From contig JARWKL010000003.1 of assembly GCA_029961685.1 (NCBI GenBank), positions 13,155,782 through 13,219,781 on the forward strand: a DNA stretch of 64,000 bases. The letters run 5' to 3'. A program made the translations under genes and the position numbers. Numbering within the stretch: position 1 is the first letter of the stretch; every line of letters starts with the position of its first letter. The stretch comes from Aristolochia californica (taxonomy: Eukaryota; Streptophyta; Magnoliopsida; Piperales; Aristolochiaceae). Shown here one piece after another: positions 41,198 to 49,600 of the stretch. The notes under the pieces were generated by a model that worked only from the letters and a program-made list of their open reading frames with translations, searched no databases and had not been told where the DNA came from.

Positions 41198-41565
41198 TGT
41201 TAGAAAAGTGGGCTCAAGCCCACACGTCCAAGAAAACAAAGCTAACACATCTAAGAGGTGGCATATGGGTAAATAAGAAGACTTCACATAAAGATGGCAT
41301 GAAGTTGTAATTACTTGTCTTTTTTTATGTCTCTTCTATTATAATGTTGTAGCCCTAAAAGGGCATTGTAAAAACTATAAATAGAGGCTTTGGCTAAGAG
41401 GAGAACATTCAAGCTCTCGTCTTCCCCTAAGTTCGTCTCTCTCCCTTGGTAGGCGCTCTCCTTCTTCTCCTCCATGCAAGCTCTCTCCCATGGTGATTGA
41501 TCTCTTCTCTCTCTCTCTTCTCCATCTCCTTCTTAGTTTTGCTGAAGTTGATCCTAAATTCTACA
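41198..41565 (+). mobile_element. 5' LTR of copia element F
   Basis: 368 bp, TGTTAGAAAAGTGGGC to ATCCTAAATTCTACA, with TATA-like ACTATAAATAGAGGC and a pyrimidine-rich right half. The primer site TGGTATCAGAGCA follows at 41566-41578. The partner LTR begins at 61292. The flank GATCA (41193-41197) does not fully match the other side (TACCA). Confidence 0.88.
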
Positions 41566-42479
41566 TGGTATCAGAGCATAGAGTTTAAGATCCCTTTGAT
41601 GAAGTATACGAAAAAATATTTATGAAGATCTTGCCATGACATTACTCATGAAGGAAAGAGTCCAGCCAAGAAGAGATAAGTCATTTCTAGTTATTATTTA
41701 CACATTTTCCATGCTATATGTTGAGGATTTTATATCTGGATTACATCAAGATAAGATGATCTTTGTTACAATGTGGGAACCACTGTGGTTGCATGAGCTG
41801 GTGGGACCCACCATGAGGACGTGAGAAGCCAAGATGAGTCAACACAAGCTGGCATGAGTTCGATTACGAGCTGGAATAAGTTGGTAGAATTGAAGATTTA
41901 GTGGGACCCACAAAGATACCAAAAGTTGACACCTTTATCTTATGAGCTAGAAGATCTAATGGGACCCACAAGAATATAGCATGAGCTTACATCCTCAGCT
42001 GTTATGGACTCCATAACATCTAGATTAACAAGTAGACGTAGAGGGTAGCTTATGTAATTTCCAACTTTTGCAATTAGTTGGTATTGTTGTAATTTCCTTC
42101 AAACTTATGGCCATTTCGTTGGCCTTCGATGGTGTGCGTTCCCTAATCTTTTATAGGGACGTCGGGTGATAAATGAAGGTAAACATTGAATCAAAAATAG
42201 TGTAGACGATCAGATTCTCCCTCTCTGAGGTCCAAGGTGCAAGCTTCCTTCGAAAGCTTGGTTATCTCATCTTCCTCTCCATGTCTCCCTACGGGTTTAG
42301 GTGGTGGCCTGCCAATGAGTCTCTATATCAGATCCGAGATTCCAAGAACTCCAACCCTTCTCTCAAACGTATTTCAATCAGGAACCGAGAGAAGAACGTT
42401 GAGTGAGTCGATCCATCCAAAGGGGGCATACCAACCTGGTATTAGAGCGGACCACCATCGGTGATTCTTCTTCTCTAAA

Positions 42480-43200
42480 CGATTGTCACAAGCAGTTGAG
42501 GAATTTTGGGTTGATATACAGACCCAATACGCTGCAACCCACACTGATCTAAAGGAGATCAGGGAGAGTATTCTTCAAATCCTTCTTCGATTTGAAGCAT
42601 ATATCGCTCGGACTTCTACTATTCTGGGTCAGGGTGGTGCTGCAGAAACGAAATCAGAGAAATTAGAGAAGCTCGAACTCAGAGACCCCCTGTTTCTCCA
42701 GCGACGGTGACATCCACAATTGGGAAATCCGAATGTCCGAAGTTGACAGGGTATTCAGTACCACCTACATCAGCAAAAATGGAAGGGGATTCACCATCCA
42801 AAAATTTCTCACTGGACACTATAGGTCTTCCCGAACAACTGGAAAATCAAATCCGAGAGCTTTCTGTCTCGAAAATGCTCCCCGAACTTCCAAAATTAGA
42901 TGGCGGGGACTCAGATTTTGGGAAATCGGAAGGCTTTTCCACCAAAATCTCGTCGGAATAGCTTGATTTGGATCGACCTCACAAATCCTCTTCTCAAGGC
43001 CAACAGAAAATCTTCCAGCATAGCAGACGGAAGCATTTCAATCTGACTCGGTCACGACGAATCAGTTCGGCCATCCCTCTTCAGTCTCAGAAAATCTACA
43101 AACACCGGCAGACACAAGAGTCTATCGGAAAAAGAAGAAGTGCTGTCGGAACCAACTCCGGTGGACCTTTGCTTCCGGATTCTCACTCTCAGTAGCAATC
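42480..43200 (+). pseudogene. Gag-like N-terminal region of element I
   Basis: A first open part from 42483 reads MSQAVEEFWVDIQTQYAATH with a helical heptad-like stretch and is followed, after a frame change at about 42707, by a second (84 codons) ending near LPELPKLDGGDSDF. An acidic helix followed by LP.L...GG resembles the start of Ty3-type plant gag proteins. No capsid or zinc knuckle is visible. A weak family call. Confidence 0.45.
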
Positions 43201-43624
43201 TCGCTCTTGGATCTCCGGTGGGGAACCCTCATCAACGTAATTGGGGGTATGTTTCTAAAACATCATCTATTTTACTGTCAATTCGTTTGTTCCAGGCAGT
43301 TGATGGGGCTCCAAGGCCCTGAGTAGCAGCAACACTGCCCTCAAATTAAGGACGACGGGTTTCTGTTCCAAAAAGTAGAACAACATAACATTTTAGCTGG
43401 AATTCTAGTTTGCTTATATACAATGCATGATGGACAAATTTTGGGTTTTCTGGCAATAGTAGAGAAAATGCAATGGGTGAAATTTTTTATTAAGGTTGAT
43501 GAGAACAGAACCAGTGCGTTTGTTCTTTTTCATCTTTCCAGCAATACTAGTCCATCTGCACACCTTGGGGGTTTAATTTTTTGGATCCCATGTATGCTGC
43601 TCGGTCACGATTTTTTTTTTTTGG
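43201..43624 (+). other. Element I interior, unassigned
   Basis: No convincing coding signal. One 75-codon open stretch (43423-43650) overlaps the start of the following long frame but in another frame. Confidence 0.4.
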
Positions 43625-44395
43625 ATGTTGTTTTCCTTTTCCACGGCTGAGAACAGCAGCACTGAGCCTCTTCCAATTTCAACTGCACACATGGATGAAA
43701 GACATGTTTCATATTCTTTGCTGAAGGGAGATAGAATTCTTTTTGCTAGTCAAATTGACATCGGGGTGCTGAAATTTTGTTTACGGAGGAATTATATCAA
43801 TTTTTCTGGGACAAACTATCTGGTTGTGGATGCACACTGCACCAGGGTGGCTGTTTCTGGTCAGTGTTCCAGCAGTAACAGTCCGTTTCAACAGGTTGCT
43901 TCATTAGGCAATGGACTTCTACAATGTCCTATTATTTTCTTGCAAACTTTTAAGAAGAGGGGCCCTCCATCCATTCAGAGGACAGGTTTGGAGATAAGGG
44001 ATTCAACCGTGTATATAGCTATGGAAAAGGCTGATGGTACTCATGATAGAATGACGGTGCATTAGTTACTGAGGAACTCCGGAAAGGATCTTGCCATAAT
44101 TTGGGACATTGTCAAAAAGTTCTATCCCAGACAAGATGTCAACCCTGATCACTATGCAGTTCATGCCTGGGCTTTTATTGCCATGTAGATTTCTTATGGT
44201 GTTGTCCGAAAATTAGTGGTTAGCTTGTGTGCTAGAATTCTTTCTGTCTATCATAGTGATGCAATTTCTGGATTTCAGGACCACTTGCAACTTTGGAAGT
44301 TGGGTGCTATTGACCTTTTGACAGCTGTTTACACATCAGTGCTGCCTAAACCAGCAATTCTGGCCGAGTATACTGAACCAACGAATATGGGTTTT
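43625..44395 (+). pseudogene. Unidentified coding stretch in frame with calnexin part
   Basis: Same reading frame as the downstream calnexin part (43625 to 45202 is one frame with five stops and no shift). This part has stops at 44063 and 44186 and reads e.g. NYINFSGTNYLVVDAHCTRV, EKADGTHDRMTVH and WDIVKKFYPRQDVNPDHYAV. I do not recognise it with confidence. Its order and length would suit the calnexin lectin domain, with scattered matching residues (...GT....VH..L), but the resemblance is too weak to claim. It may be another host gene fused in. Confidence 0.45.
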
Positions 44396-45202
44396 GCTGC
44401 TGCTGAATTGGGGCCTCCACTTATCCCACCTAAGACAATACACGATCCAGATGTTGAGAATCCTGAGGATGGGGATGAGAGAGCTAAGATTCCGGATCCT
44501 AGAGCTCTAAAGTCTGACGATTGGGATGAAGTTGCCCCAATTACAATTGAAGATGAGGAGGCCGAGAAGTCGGACGAATGGTTGGTTGGTGAAACCGAGG
44601 AGATTGACGACACCAAACCTAAGAAGCCTGTAGATTAGGCTGCTGATGAGGATGGTGCATGGGAGGCACCACCGATTGATAATCCTACGTGTGACTCTGC
44701 TCATGGCTGTGCTATTGGAATTGAGATAGGGACGCTATAGGCTGGGGTATTTTTTGACAATATATTCCTAGTGGGGGATGAGAAGACTACTGATTTTGTC
44801 AAGGTGACTGCATCGAAGCCTCAGTTTGAATTGGAGACAGAAACGCAGCAGGAAGAGGCAGTTGTCGCATCTGGTGGAATTTCTGGTGTTCATCAGAAGG
44901 TCTTTGATGTGATCTACTGGATTGCAGATATTCCTTTCTTCGCAGCATATCATTTCAAGATCATTGATGTCATTGCGATGGGAGGGCGTCAGCCTAACCT
45001 TCCTATTGGCATTCTGGTCTCCGTAGTGGTTCTCCTGGTCATAGTCATTTTTTGGGTAATCTTTGGTGGAAAGAAACGAGCTCCTGTTTGAGCACTGCTC
45101 AAGGAAAAGAAAAGCTCTGATGCTGGAGGTGACCAACAGGGCACTAGTAGTGGTCAGACAGATGAAAATGAGAAGGAAGATGCTGCTGGCCTTGACCAAT
45201 AA
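44396..45202 (+). pseudogene. CNX: Captured calnexin: P-domain part, membrane anchor and tail
   Basis: Calnexin is the ER membrane lectin chaperone. Visible here: PPLIPPKTIHDPDVENPEDG and DERAKIPDP (P-domain repeats), IEDEEAEKSDEWL, DEDGAWEAPPIDNP, then a jump over ~65 residues of the family (second P-domain arm) to AIGIEI, DNIFL, KVFDVIYWIADIPFFAAY, QPNLPIG, a hydrophobic membrane span (about 45001-45065) and FGGKK, then a charged cytosolic tail ending TAA at 45202. No introns interrupt it, so it came from RNA. Stops at 44636, 44738 and 45089 break it; the first two fit single transitions (Trp to TAG, Gln to TAG). No frameshift occurs. Confidence 0.88.
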
Positions 45203-45436
45203 GATCTAGATGGAACACATAAAACTCCAAGTGGGCGATTTGACATTTTGAGGAGAGTTGGGTAAAAAAAAAAAAGAAAATTGTTTTGCTCCTCTGGTTG
45301 GATGATCTGCCTTTGTAGTCCAGAGGGCTAACACAGATACCGCGGTTGCCACTTGTGCATGGATGGAGACGTCGACACGGGCAAACAGACCTACCTTCCA
45401 GCTTGAGGGCAAGCTCATTCTCCAGGAGGGGAGTGA
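45203..45436 (+). other. Element I 3' untranslated part and purine tract
   Basis: Non-coding link from the calnexin stop to the 3' LTR, ending in the purine tract GGAGGGGAGTGA (45425-45436). It may be calnexin 3' UTR or element sequence; I cannot separate them. Confidence 0.5.
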
Positions 45437-46662
45437 TGTTATGGACTCCATAGCATCTAGATTAACTAGTAGACATAGAGGGTAGCTTATGTAATTTCCA
45501 ACTTTTGCAATTAGTAGGTATTTTTGTAATTTCCTTCAAACTTATGGCCCTTTCGTTGGCTTTTGTTGGTGTGCGTTCCCTAATCTTTTATAGGGACATC
45601 ACATTCTCCCTCTCTGAGGTCCAAGGTGCAAACTTCCTTTGAAAGCTTGGTTATCTCATCTTCCTCTCCATGTCTCCCTACGGGTTCAGGTGGTGGCATG
45701 CCAACAAGTCCCTGTATTAGATCCGGGATTCCAAAAACTCCAACCCTTCTTCTCAAACGTATTTCAATCAGGAACTGAGAGAAGAACATCGGGTGAATCG
45801 ATCCATCTCAAGGGGGCATACCATCAGCCTAGCCATCTCGTGCAGAAGGAATTGGGAAACTTAGAATTTGGGTAAATTAGAATTTGAGTAAGTTCTAAAT
45901 TGAGTTGAATTATAGTTGGAAAGTGTACATTAGATCACTCCTCCACTATAAATAAAGGAGCTTGTATTCAAGAAAAATCAATCAAAGCAAGGAGTTCTCT
46001 CCTCTTTTCTCATTCACATGAAATCTTCTCTTTTCTCTTCTCTTCTCTTTAGTTTTCTTCTTCTCCTCTCTCTACCCGAGAGCTCTATTCCCTCTTATCT
46101 TTTTCTCTTCTCTCTCCTCATGCTCAAGTTATTATTCATGGGATCCTAAATTCAACATGGTATTAAAGCAACCAATTTAGGATCCCCCCATCAAAGGAAT
46201 GCTCTAAGAAGATATGATCATAGAAGACTCTTCCTGAAGCAAGATTGAAGCTCATGAGAGAAGTTTTTCTATTTATGATATTATTGATTTATGCTACTGG
46301 ATTTTAGATATTAAAAGATGGTTTAGAGATGTTTTTATGCATGTCTTCATCTTATGAGATTATGAAAGTATATGCATCTTGGATTAGAAGAAGTTATCAA
46401 GACAATTTTTATTTGGAATTTCTGTTAACCGAGACCAGTCCATGATCAGATTGTTGAAGATTTTTTTTTTTGTGGGAACAAGATTCCCATAATATAGAAG
46501 ATTGATATTGAGTCTATTATGAATGGTTATTTACTTAGAAAAAAAATCAGAATAATGATTGTTTAGCATCAATGCTAAATTTCTCCATGCACCAAGTTGT
46601 TTGAAGAATACTACTTGGATTTTTTTTTTATTGGAGATTCGTTTTTCATTGAAGTTCCTATT

Positions 46663-49600
46663 ATGGTTGACGAAAATTTGAGTAGCAAAGGTGGTATACT
46701 TAGAATAACCACTATACCCTTATGAAGGGTATCAAATTTTATGAGTTGGTCCACATCGGTTTTGAGGTTTCTTATAACAAAGGACCTACTTGGTCATCTC
46801 ATCAACCGTGGACCACCTATTGATGAAGAAGACATTTTTTTTTATAAAAAATGGTTACAAAATGATACCATTGTGATTAGTTGGCTAATCAAAAGTATGG
46901 AAAAATTGTGGAAATCATGCACTCATTGTGGGAGATATGGCCACCCTATCGATACATGCTCTTACAAGGAAGACAGTTACTGTGGAAAAAATGGTCACTA
47001 TGGAGAAATATGTTATAATGCCAATGATAACTCAGACTTGACAATGGATAATCAAGACTTAATAGGTAATACAAAGGATGAACAACCCACCAAATCAACT
47101 GAAAAGAGAAATTTTATTGATGAAGAATATGAGTTGTTTCATAAAATGATGGGTTCTTCTCCAAGTTCCTCATTAAATACCGGTGCCACCACTGCTTCTG
47201 GTATGCTATCTACCTCATCTTCATCCTGGATAATTGACTCAGGAACCTCCAAGCATCTTATAGGTAACAAAAATTTATTACATTCTGTATCTCCGTGTTT
47301 TTCACATAAGTTTGTTACCATAGCTAACGGTTCTCAAACTAAAGTTCAAGGGAAATGACCCACTTCCGTTACACCATCACTTCTGCTCACTGATATTCAA
47401 TTTGTTCCTTTCTTCCCTATGTTAGTTAGCTGAACAAATATTTTAATTGCTCTATCACCTTCTCACCCACATCGTGTATATTTCAGGATCTTATAACGAA
47501 ACAGGGGATTGGTGGAGGCCGAGAATAAAGGGGGCTATTCTACATGGATGTGCCAAAAATAAATACCGTTTCCACCAGTGAAAATGAGACAAGGCTATGG
47601 CACAACCGATTGGGACATCCATCTACACAATCTCTTCATTATATGTTTCCTACTCTTAAAGTTAGGTTAGAGTTTAATTGTGATGTTTGTCAACTGAGTA
47701 AATATCAGAGGAGTACATACTCACCTCGTCCAGAAGTCAAAAGTATTACTCCGTTTTCATTAATTCATACCAATGTATGGGGACCCTTGAGCGTCTTAAA
47801 TATTTCTCAAGTCATGTATTTTATTACATTTATTGATGACTTCACTCGTACTACTTGGTTGTTTCTATTTAAGGAGCGTTCTGAGATACCATGGATTTTT
47901 AAATCTTTTCATGCTATGGTACTCACTCAGTTTGGTCAGAAAATAAAAATACTTCAGTTTGATAATGCCAAAGAATACATTTCACAAGACCTTGATTCTT
48001 TTTGTCAAGAAAATTGCATTATCCATAAAAAATCATGTGCCTACACTCCTCAACAATATGGTGTAGCCGAATGGAAAAATCATCATATGCTTGAGGTAGC
48101 TCGAGGTTTGTTATATGCCTTGAAAGTTCCATACTTTTATTGGCCTCATGTAGTCTTTACCGCATGCTTTCTTATAAAACTTATACCATCTTCTGATCTT
48201 GGTAATAAATCTCCTTACTCTATATTGTTACCAAATGATGATCCATTTTCATTGTCCGTGAAAGTCTTCGGGTATCAATGTTTTGTCCATATTTCCTCCC
48301 CAAAATACAGTAAACTTGATCCTAAATCTCTCAAGTGTATCCTTTTAGGATACTCTAGTACACAAAAGGGCTATGTTTGCTATAATCCCACTCTTCATGG
48401 CATGCCAAATTTTTTGAATACTCTTCATACTAGTCTGACAATGCTCCTCCATGTTTATCTTCAGTACCAGGTTATCCTCGACCATTTGTGCCCCGTGCTG
48501 CAGAAACTACTCAGCCCCCAGAAACACTGGCTGACACCACACCTGCTGAGTTTACGGATCCCACCGAGGTAAGTCCATCTCCTCCAGTTATTTTTTGCCC
48601 ATAATATTATACTCGTCCTAGTGCACAAAGAAAAGAACCTAGATCATCCACCATACCTTCTATGTCTCATCCCATATCAAATTTTGTGTCTCATCATCGT
48701 CTACCCCCTGCATGTTGTCAATTTCTTTCTGCTATTTCATCCATATCTGTACCACAGTCCTATCAGGAGGCTCTCAAACATCCAAGGTGGAAGGTGGAAA
48801 AGGATGAAGAAATGCAGAAAATTTATGAAAATCAGACATGGGCTCTAATCCCACTTCCATCAGATAAGAAACCTGTCGGTTGCAAATGGGTGTTTACTGT
48901 AAAACACAATCTGGATGGGTCTGTGGCTCGACTGAAGGCTTGTCTAGTTGCTAATGGCTATACACAATGTTATGGCATTGATTATGAGGAAACCTTCTCT
49001 CTAGTGGGAAAATTGAACTCGGTACGTGTGTTATTATCTTTGGTGGCTAACTCTTCCATGCAGGTATATCAACTTGATGTAAAAAATGCTTTTCTAAATG
49101 GGGATATCAAAGAGGAAATTTGTATGCAGTAACTACCAAGTTATGTGGTTGAGAGGGAGTCTGTATGTCAACTCAAAAATTATCTTTTATGGGCTCAAAC
49201 AATCTCCTTTTGAATGGTTTGAAAATTTTAGCCAAGCGTTCATACGGGCCGGATTCCACAGATGCTCTGGAGATCACTCCGTATTTATTAAAGACACACC
49301 GAAGGGCAAGATGATTTTGGCAGTATATGTTGATGATATCATTATAACTGGTAGTGATATTGAGGGCATCCAGACAACAAAAGAAAGGATATGTGCTAAA
49401 TTCAAGACAAAGGATCTCAGACTGTGCAAATATTTTCTAGGCATTGAAGTACGACAATCCAGACATGGAATTATATTATCTCAAAAGAAGTATGTCTTTG
49501 ACCTACTGGAGGAGACCAGAATGATGTGATGCAGACCAGTAGGAACTCCTATGGACTCAAATACAAAACTATGTGCCAGTACTGGAGAAGAGTTAGATGT

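Follow-up and report, generated by a model that had tools for sequence, protein, structure and literature searches.

Fragments of calnexin and other host genes within an LTR retrotransposon of Aristolochia californica

We describe a long terminal repeat (LTR) element that occupies positions 42000-45823 of a 64,000-nucleotide stretch of the genome of the pipevine Aristolochia californica (the window; G000:C221:13155782-13219781 of a 660-Mb assembly). Positions given without a locus prefix are positions in this window. Spliced host coding sequence, derived from calnexin, lies between the two LTRs, which makes this a gene-capturing (transducing) LTR element of the kind represented by Bs1. In our view it is very probably a dead copy belonging to a non-autonomous lineage of Ty3/gypsy type that acquires host mRNA.

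Results and discussion

Structure of the element

The element is an LTR retrotransposon: two LTRs, a perfect target-site duplication (TSD), a primer-binding site (PBS) and a polypurine tract (PPT) are all present (Table 1). An earlier note, made from the letters of the window alone, had described each of these correctly, together with a gag-like start, which corresponds to a degenerate Gag-like leader. The LTRs are 92.7% identical (28 differences over 386 aligned sites; Kimura two-parameter distance 0.077), the 5' LTR having about 48 extra bases compared with the 3' LTR, and both begin with TG and end with CA (TGTTATGG...ATACCA). The PBS-like sequence is presumably that of tRNA-Met; in the sister elements the primer-site sequence is TGGTATCAGAGC. 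At least 43 genomic matches were found to the 5' LTR, its own included (best 40 of 972 candidates scored), and at least 156 to the leader protein L007:1903-2451, that of the window included (best 150 of 2203 candidates scored).

No pol domain (protease, reverse transcriptase, RNase H or integrase) was found when nine open reading frame (ORF) translations of the element were scanned with Pfam, and the element is thus not an autonomous Ty3/gypsy element, which would carry pol in its interior. The earlier note had placed a calnexin-derived gene in place of pol. Its statement holds as far as the missing pol is concerned and is too narrow otherwise, since at least two captured pieces are identified, or three if module Y is included. 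The ABCA assignment comes from locus L043, in which the frame at 1622-1892 aligns to residues 1378-1465 of ABCA3 and continues into the ATPase domain. The calnexin and ABCA fragments of the window element are both in sense orientation, as judged from both strands.

Table 1. Features of the window element, and host-gene families in other elements of the wider family
Feature	Position or locus	Strand	Basis or context
Left TSD, TCAGC	41995..41999	.	exact match to 45824-45828
5' LTR	42000..42433	+	direct repeat
Family leader, N-terminal Gag-like, degenerate	42434..42910	+	match to leader protein L007:1903-2451
PBS-like TGGTATTAGAGC	42437..42448	+	read from sequence
Interior stretch partly common to other family members	42911..43891	+	DNA matches to L034, L043, L044, L050
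ABC-A transporter gene fragment	43892..44163	+	83.8% DNA match to L043:1622-1892
Module Y, second host-like segment	44156..44379	+ (as listed)	eight genomic homologues
Calnexin fragment, aa ~204-531 including stop codon position	44397..45222	+	Pfam, PDB, DNA and protein alignment
Calnexin 3' untranslated region (3'UTR), ~41 nt	45223..45263	+	matches donor gene 3' of stop codon
A-tract (A12 G A4)	45264..45280	+	absent from both calnexin genes here
Family 3' tail with purine tract	45281..45436	+	common to L034, L043, L050, L052
PPT AGGAGGGGAGTGA	45424..45436	+	read from sequence
3' LTR	45437..45823	+	direct repeat
Right TSD, TCAGC	45824..45828	.	exact match to left copy
LRR	L038		LTR pair
DUF7798	L040		LTR pair
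Glutamate synthase (GltS), eEF2 and HA2 helicase	L041		LTR pair
Acyl-CoA oxidase	L050		LTR pair
ARM and PPR	L057		LTR pair
GH3, RRM and NAP	L059		LTR pair
M20 peptidase	L046		no LTR pair visible in stretch examined
Ubiquitin hydrolase	L048		no LTR pair visible in stretch examined
Prenyltransferase	L058		no LTR pair visible in stretch examined

The calnexin fragment and its donor

Searched against calnexins and against the genome, as the earlier note had proposed, the fragment gives a match far above chance: E is 2.2e-18 for the Pfam Calreticulin model, 4.3e-14 for calnexin in the PDB and about 2e-99 for the calnexin of A. californica itself, with 54% identity. Besides intronless loci, the genome holds two calnexin genes of six exons each. 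The A. californica calnexins P0001 and P0002 correspond without mismatch to these spliced genes, on C329 (gene1) and C1 (gene2), respectively. Introns interrupt the donor gene after residues 24, 47, 422, 446 and 485. When aligned as DNA to this likely donor, the window sequence at 44397-45264 falls into five blocks which abut within two bases at the introns of the gene (they meet at 44893/44895, 44966 and 45082/45083) and which overlap at one internal deletion in the fragment. The introns after residues 422, 446 and 485 are therefore missing, in agreement with the intronless calnexin sequence of the earlier note.

The fragment begins at about residue 204, with no earlier calnexin residues present, and an in-frame deletion has removed some 52 residues (309-361). 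Its frame contains stops at 44636, 44738, 45089 and 45200. The earlier note had recognized calnexin at 44396-45202 and had taken the stop there as its terminus; the identification stands, but the extent is corrected to 44397-45222, because the TAA at 45220-45222 is the codon that matches the stop of the donor and the stop at 45200 is thus premature. A start at 44276, suggested by a protein alignment covering 44276-44379, was rejected since the DNA comparison places module Y there.

Calnexin copies in the genome

At least 101 protein matches to calnexin fall at 56 places, comprising the two genes, 46 loci with more than 57% identity and eight weaker ones; all locus counts are lower bounds drawn from the best-scoring candidates. 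Each of the 46 loci has, as judged by eye, a match that crosses one or more of the positions at which the genes have introns, and is intronless in this sense. The eight loci of low identity (for example C329:32337568 and C13:11913683) are possibly calreticulin, and some may be further captured copies.

The copies fall into four groups. Those of group A have the structure seen in the window, those of group B span residues 116-531, those of group C stop near residue 445 and resume at 511, and those of group D span residues 340-531. The earlier note had expected more intact versions elsewhere. Three loci do match residues 115/116-531 in one block, with 80-84% protein identity, but each has two or three stops, and no intact calnexin was found inside an element. 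Long frames are retained in some copies, with 468 residues in L032 and 448 in L045. None of the 46 intronless loci has a match before residue 115, so that all of them lack the signal peptide and a portion of the lectin domain.

We aligned 23 of the 46 copies (ten of group A, eight of B and five of C, group D being unrepresented). These copies cluster apart from both genes (support 100), and their branch point on the line between the two genes lies 0.012 substitutions per site away from gene1 and 0.059 away from gene2. Since the copies group together and branch very near one gene, calnexin was likely captured once, and on the same distances gene1 or a recent ancestor of it is the likely donor.

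The order leader-calnexin-tail-LTR recurs at other loci. We also compared the 3' junction in the window and in L013, L020, L034, L035 and L036. In these copies, which represent groups A, B and C, the junction is the same: the 3'UTR ends after about 40-60 nt and is followed by A-rich sequence and then by the tail of the element. The A-tract, which neither calnexin gene has at this point, is also found in other calnexin elements.

An intronless calnexin with a 3'UTR and an A-tract is also what a processed pseudogene made by a long interspersed nuclear element (LINE) would leave, with unrelated LTRs later inserted into or around it. This explanation is extremely improbable in our judgement: the perfect TSD lies outside the LTRs of the element, the order of the parts recurs from locus to locus, and the family tail directly follows the A-tract in the copies compared from groups A, B and C. 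The alternative that the earlier note had named as fatal to its own proposal, unrelated LTRs around an ordinary processed pseudogene, thus fails, and its proposal that the element captured and mobilized a calnexin transcript is supported by the spliced fragment, by the recurring arrangement and by the more complete copies elsewhere in the genome.

Selection on the copies

Calnexin might instead have become a working gene of the element, for instance as a chaperone for element proteins, or selection might keep its frame open. The long frames of L032 and L045 would fit this, as would dN/dS (the ratio of nonsynonymous to synonymous substitution rates) of 0.65 within group C and 0.81 within group A (1.12 within group B), and a first count over the 23 copies gave 41 stops against 83.0 expected. 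That count takes shared changes many times over, however, and the apparent avoidance of stops is mostly gone once these are counted once. Among 449 private substitutions, each counted once, there are 23 actual stop codons (24.0 expected), and the 405 distinct shared substitutions produce eight (11.3 expected, P 0.18) and include 306 nonsynonymous changes (297.1 expected). Nonsynonymous and synonymous changes lie near the neutral expectation, shared and private alike. Changes taken singly on the gene1 background give fewer stops than expected, 15 against 24.7 for private changes (Poisson P 0.025) and 12 against 16.7 for shared ones (P 0.15). Between copy groups dN/dS is 1.03-1.05, compared with 0.14 between gene1 and gene2. 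No clear purifying selection was found on the 23 copies from dN/dS or from the substitution counts. From these comparisons the copies look like cargo that changes almost neutrally, although a mild deficit of stops is possible. Given also the missing signal peptide and the incomplete lectin domain, a working calnexin gene, or a frame kept open by selection, is very unlikely.

Other host genes in the family

A donor family was counted in the wider element family if it matched above the Pfam cut-off or with a PDB E below 1e-7. On this basis there are 17 donor families, including calnexin, RRM, aspartate carbamoyltransferase (ATCase) and ABCA, and 14 of the 17 lie inside LTR pairs. ABCA is counted through the window fragment; the locus with its Pfam match, L043, showed no LTR pair. 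GOST_TM in L041 was below the cut-off and was left out, as were the ARM-like matches in L039, ARM being counted from L057.

The group B elements L034-L036, with LTRs 88.8-93.1% identical and TSDs of their own, carry a PABP-type RRM and an ATCase fragment 5' of calnexin (Pfam matches above cut-off: RRM in L034 and L035, ATCase in L034 and L036). At 11 places there is an RRM region but no ATCase, at seven RRM and ATCase are paired without a listed calnexin match, and in groups B and C all three are present. This distribution fits stepwise gain and exchange of modules. Pieces from several donors are joined within one element in the window (calnexin and ABCA), in L034 (RRM, ATCase and calnexin) and in L041, where pieces of glutamate synthase, eEF2 and HA2 helicase lie fused within 120 residues of a single frame (L041:8883-9242).

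Of 17 elements with LTR pairs, inspected by eye, ten have perfect TSDs, two have a single mismatch (L039 and L057) and five showed none (L033, L038, L040, L041 and L059). A systematic sample of nine leader loci, drawn from the leader match list at intervals of about ten ranks, showed an LTR pair in four; L061 has a 129-base repeat only. At one sampled locus a minus-strand frame (L054:302-664) lies immediately beyond the 3' LTR of an element of the leader family; it resembles arginine methyltransferase and scores 21.6 bits against a cut-off of 22.9 with the PRMT5 model.

Each of the eight genomic homologues of module Y (C221:27673987 and seven more places) is split at one point by a gap of 75-95 bp, which is intron-like. 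For module Y and residues 1-190 at the start of the L032 frame, a length-limited search found no protein match; with Pfam, L032 gave calnexin alone, and the two pieces of module Y in L042 gave no match. L042 itself looks chimeric, with an EF-hand piece.

Recent activity and a candidate helper

The element L050:696-4211 (C221:21934495-21938010) has LTRs that are identical over 353 bases and a perfect TSD (GCCTC); because its LTRs are identical, the lineage has been active recently. It contains an unbroken frame of 863 codons in which the leader is fused to acyl-CoA oxidase. The frame probably also contains calreticulin and enolase pieces, which score below the curated Pfam cut-offs (18.1 of 25 and 19.6 of 21.5, respectively) and have PDB E near 1e-3; these weak matches were left out of the 17 families. 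No relative of the 863-residue frame was found in the protein collection (best 7999 candidates scored). A second insertion of this frame, L051, differs by 15 bases and 11 residues in 2589 bases and has LTRs 98.7% identical over 313 bases, a TSD of CAATA and flanks unlike those of L050.

Adjoining L051 is a Ty3/gypsy element, L052, with LTRs 96% identical, a TSD of CCCTA and, between the LTRs, Ty3_capsid, RVP_2, RVT_1 and Integrase_H2C2 domains above the cut-off. It shares 20 of 21 bases at the LTR start and 29 of 32 in the tail with the window element; its leader matches only that of L050 (70% over 200 nt). The shared termini place the window element, as a non-autonomous derivative, in the Ty3/gypsy lineage. 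A relative resembling L052 is likely to be the helper that supplies the proteins.

Integrase-type and SH3_retrovirus frames lie on the two sides of L050, which thus sits inside another retroelement. The window element may likewise be nested in another LTR element, since an 82% repeat flanks it (41550-41594 and 46142-46186) and a frame with Pol_BBD (above cut-off) and a weak zinc knuckle lies just 3' of it (46726-47358).

Mechanism of capture

Repeated template switching onto packaged host mRNAs is, in our view, the best reading of these data and a highly probable one. Capsid, reverse transcriptase and integrase would be supplied in trans by an L052-like relative. While the minus strand is being made in the particle, the polymerase would leave the element RNA at the A-tract, move into the poly(A) tail of a calnexin mRNA packaged with it and copy the 3'UTR and coding sequence of that mRNA; a short homology would then let it pass to another RNA, before it returned to element RNA. 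Once integrated, the chimera would be transcribed from its LTR and multiply as a unit, and later exchange of modules would involve two element RNAs in one particle. In L013 and L015, ATCase is joined to calnexin over a short common stretch (5' side, by eye).

Recombination at the DNA level, or read-through transduction of a retrocopy nearby, would account for a capture without template switching, and read-through transduction is described as a known route in the part of a review drawn on here (PMC13317346). The captured segment is, however, internal and spliced, with both ends joined to other host or element sequence, and several unrelated genes are chained within one element. We therefore regard this alternative as very unlikely.

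Several points weigh against capture by template switching as set out above. L043, which has ABCA and no calnexin, also has the A-tract and tail, so the tract is possibly a landing place and not the own tail of the calnexin mRNA; its presence in the element may predate the capture of calnexin. A run of eight or more A is absent from L037, L039, L040 and L041. The A-tract may be what is left of a poly(A) tail, or an A-rich site of switching. A donor domain above the cut-off is present in only three of the nine sampled leader loci (L057, L058 and L059), L053 being below the cut-off and the ORFs scanned in L054, L055, L056, L060 and L061 having none inside the element. Both strands were examined for calnexin and ABCA only, and sense ORFs only in most other elements. 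Finally, the integrase core match of L052 is below the cut-off, and its part as mobilizer is one that we infer.

Uptake of host mRNA may even be a habit of this lineage. Minimal termini and the Gag-like leader would recruit host mRNAs, nascent T-rich cDNA would anneal to their poly(A) tails by way of the internal A-tract, and the captured sequence would act as neutral filler, giving the RNA a length sufficient for packaging. We put this broader proposal forward tentatively, and on balance rather doubt it.

Comparison with known systems

Pack-MULEs and gene-carrying Helitrons shuffle and multiply host gene fragments; these are DNA elements, whereas the calnexin cargo of the pipevine is a copy of spliced RNA. 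Among LTR elements, maize Bs1 is not known to encode reverse transcriptase and has a low copy number. According to the part of a review drawn on here, segments of H+-ATPase, xylan endohydrolase and beta-1,3-glucanase genes form a chimeric gene in it (PMC13317346). The window element resembles Bs1 in being an LTR element with segments of several host genes and differs in the genes and the plant. In the pipevine, moreover, a single lineage contains sequence from about 17 donor families, calnexin sits at 46 loci or more, and the same modules recur in varied combinations.

As given in the excerpts used here, LTR-driven retroduplication has multiplied NLR genes in pepper: 105, 123 and 86 NLRs lie inside LTR elements in three peppers, and about 72% of the host genes inside LTR elements sit in non-autonomous ones, the parental genes having introns (PMC5664825). 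Host genes within LTR elements are common to both plants, but on these excerpts the pepper cargo consists of NLR genes as such, whereas that of the pipevine consists of chained unrelated fragments, with calnexin near-neutral. For rice, sorghum and maize, 672, 1,343 and 424 LTR-captured genes are listed (PMC3726574); these are genome-wide inventories, and the portion drawn on here describes no single lineage of multi-gene chimeras. Looked for in connection with LTR elements, calnexin is not mentioned at all in the literature matches listed, which cover open PMC papers.

Gene capture by plant LTR elements is already known, from single cases and from inventories. What we judge to be new is that one lineage draws on so wide a range of donors, chains their pieces and has modules in common among its members. 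The captured chimeric frames may be mistaken for genes in annotation. With many captures, stepwise gain of modules, a recognizable donor and many near-neutral descendants in a single lineage, the pipevine elements allow direct measurement of the junctions, of the traces of poly(A) and of the order and rate of capture, and let one ask why some retroelement lineages repeatedly take up host mRNA.

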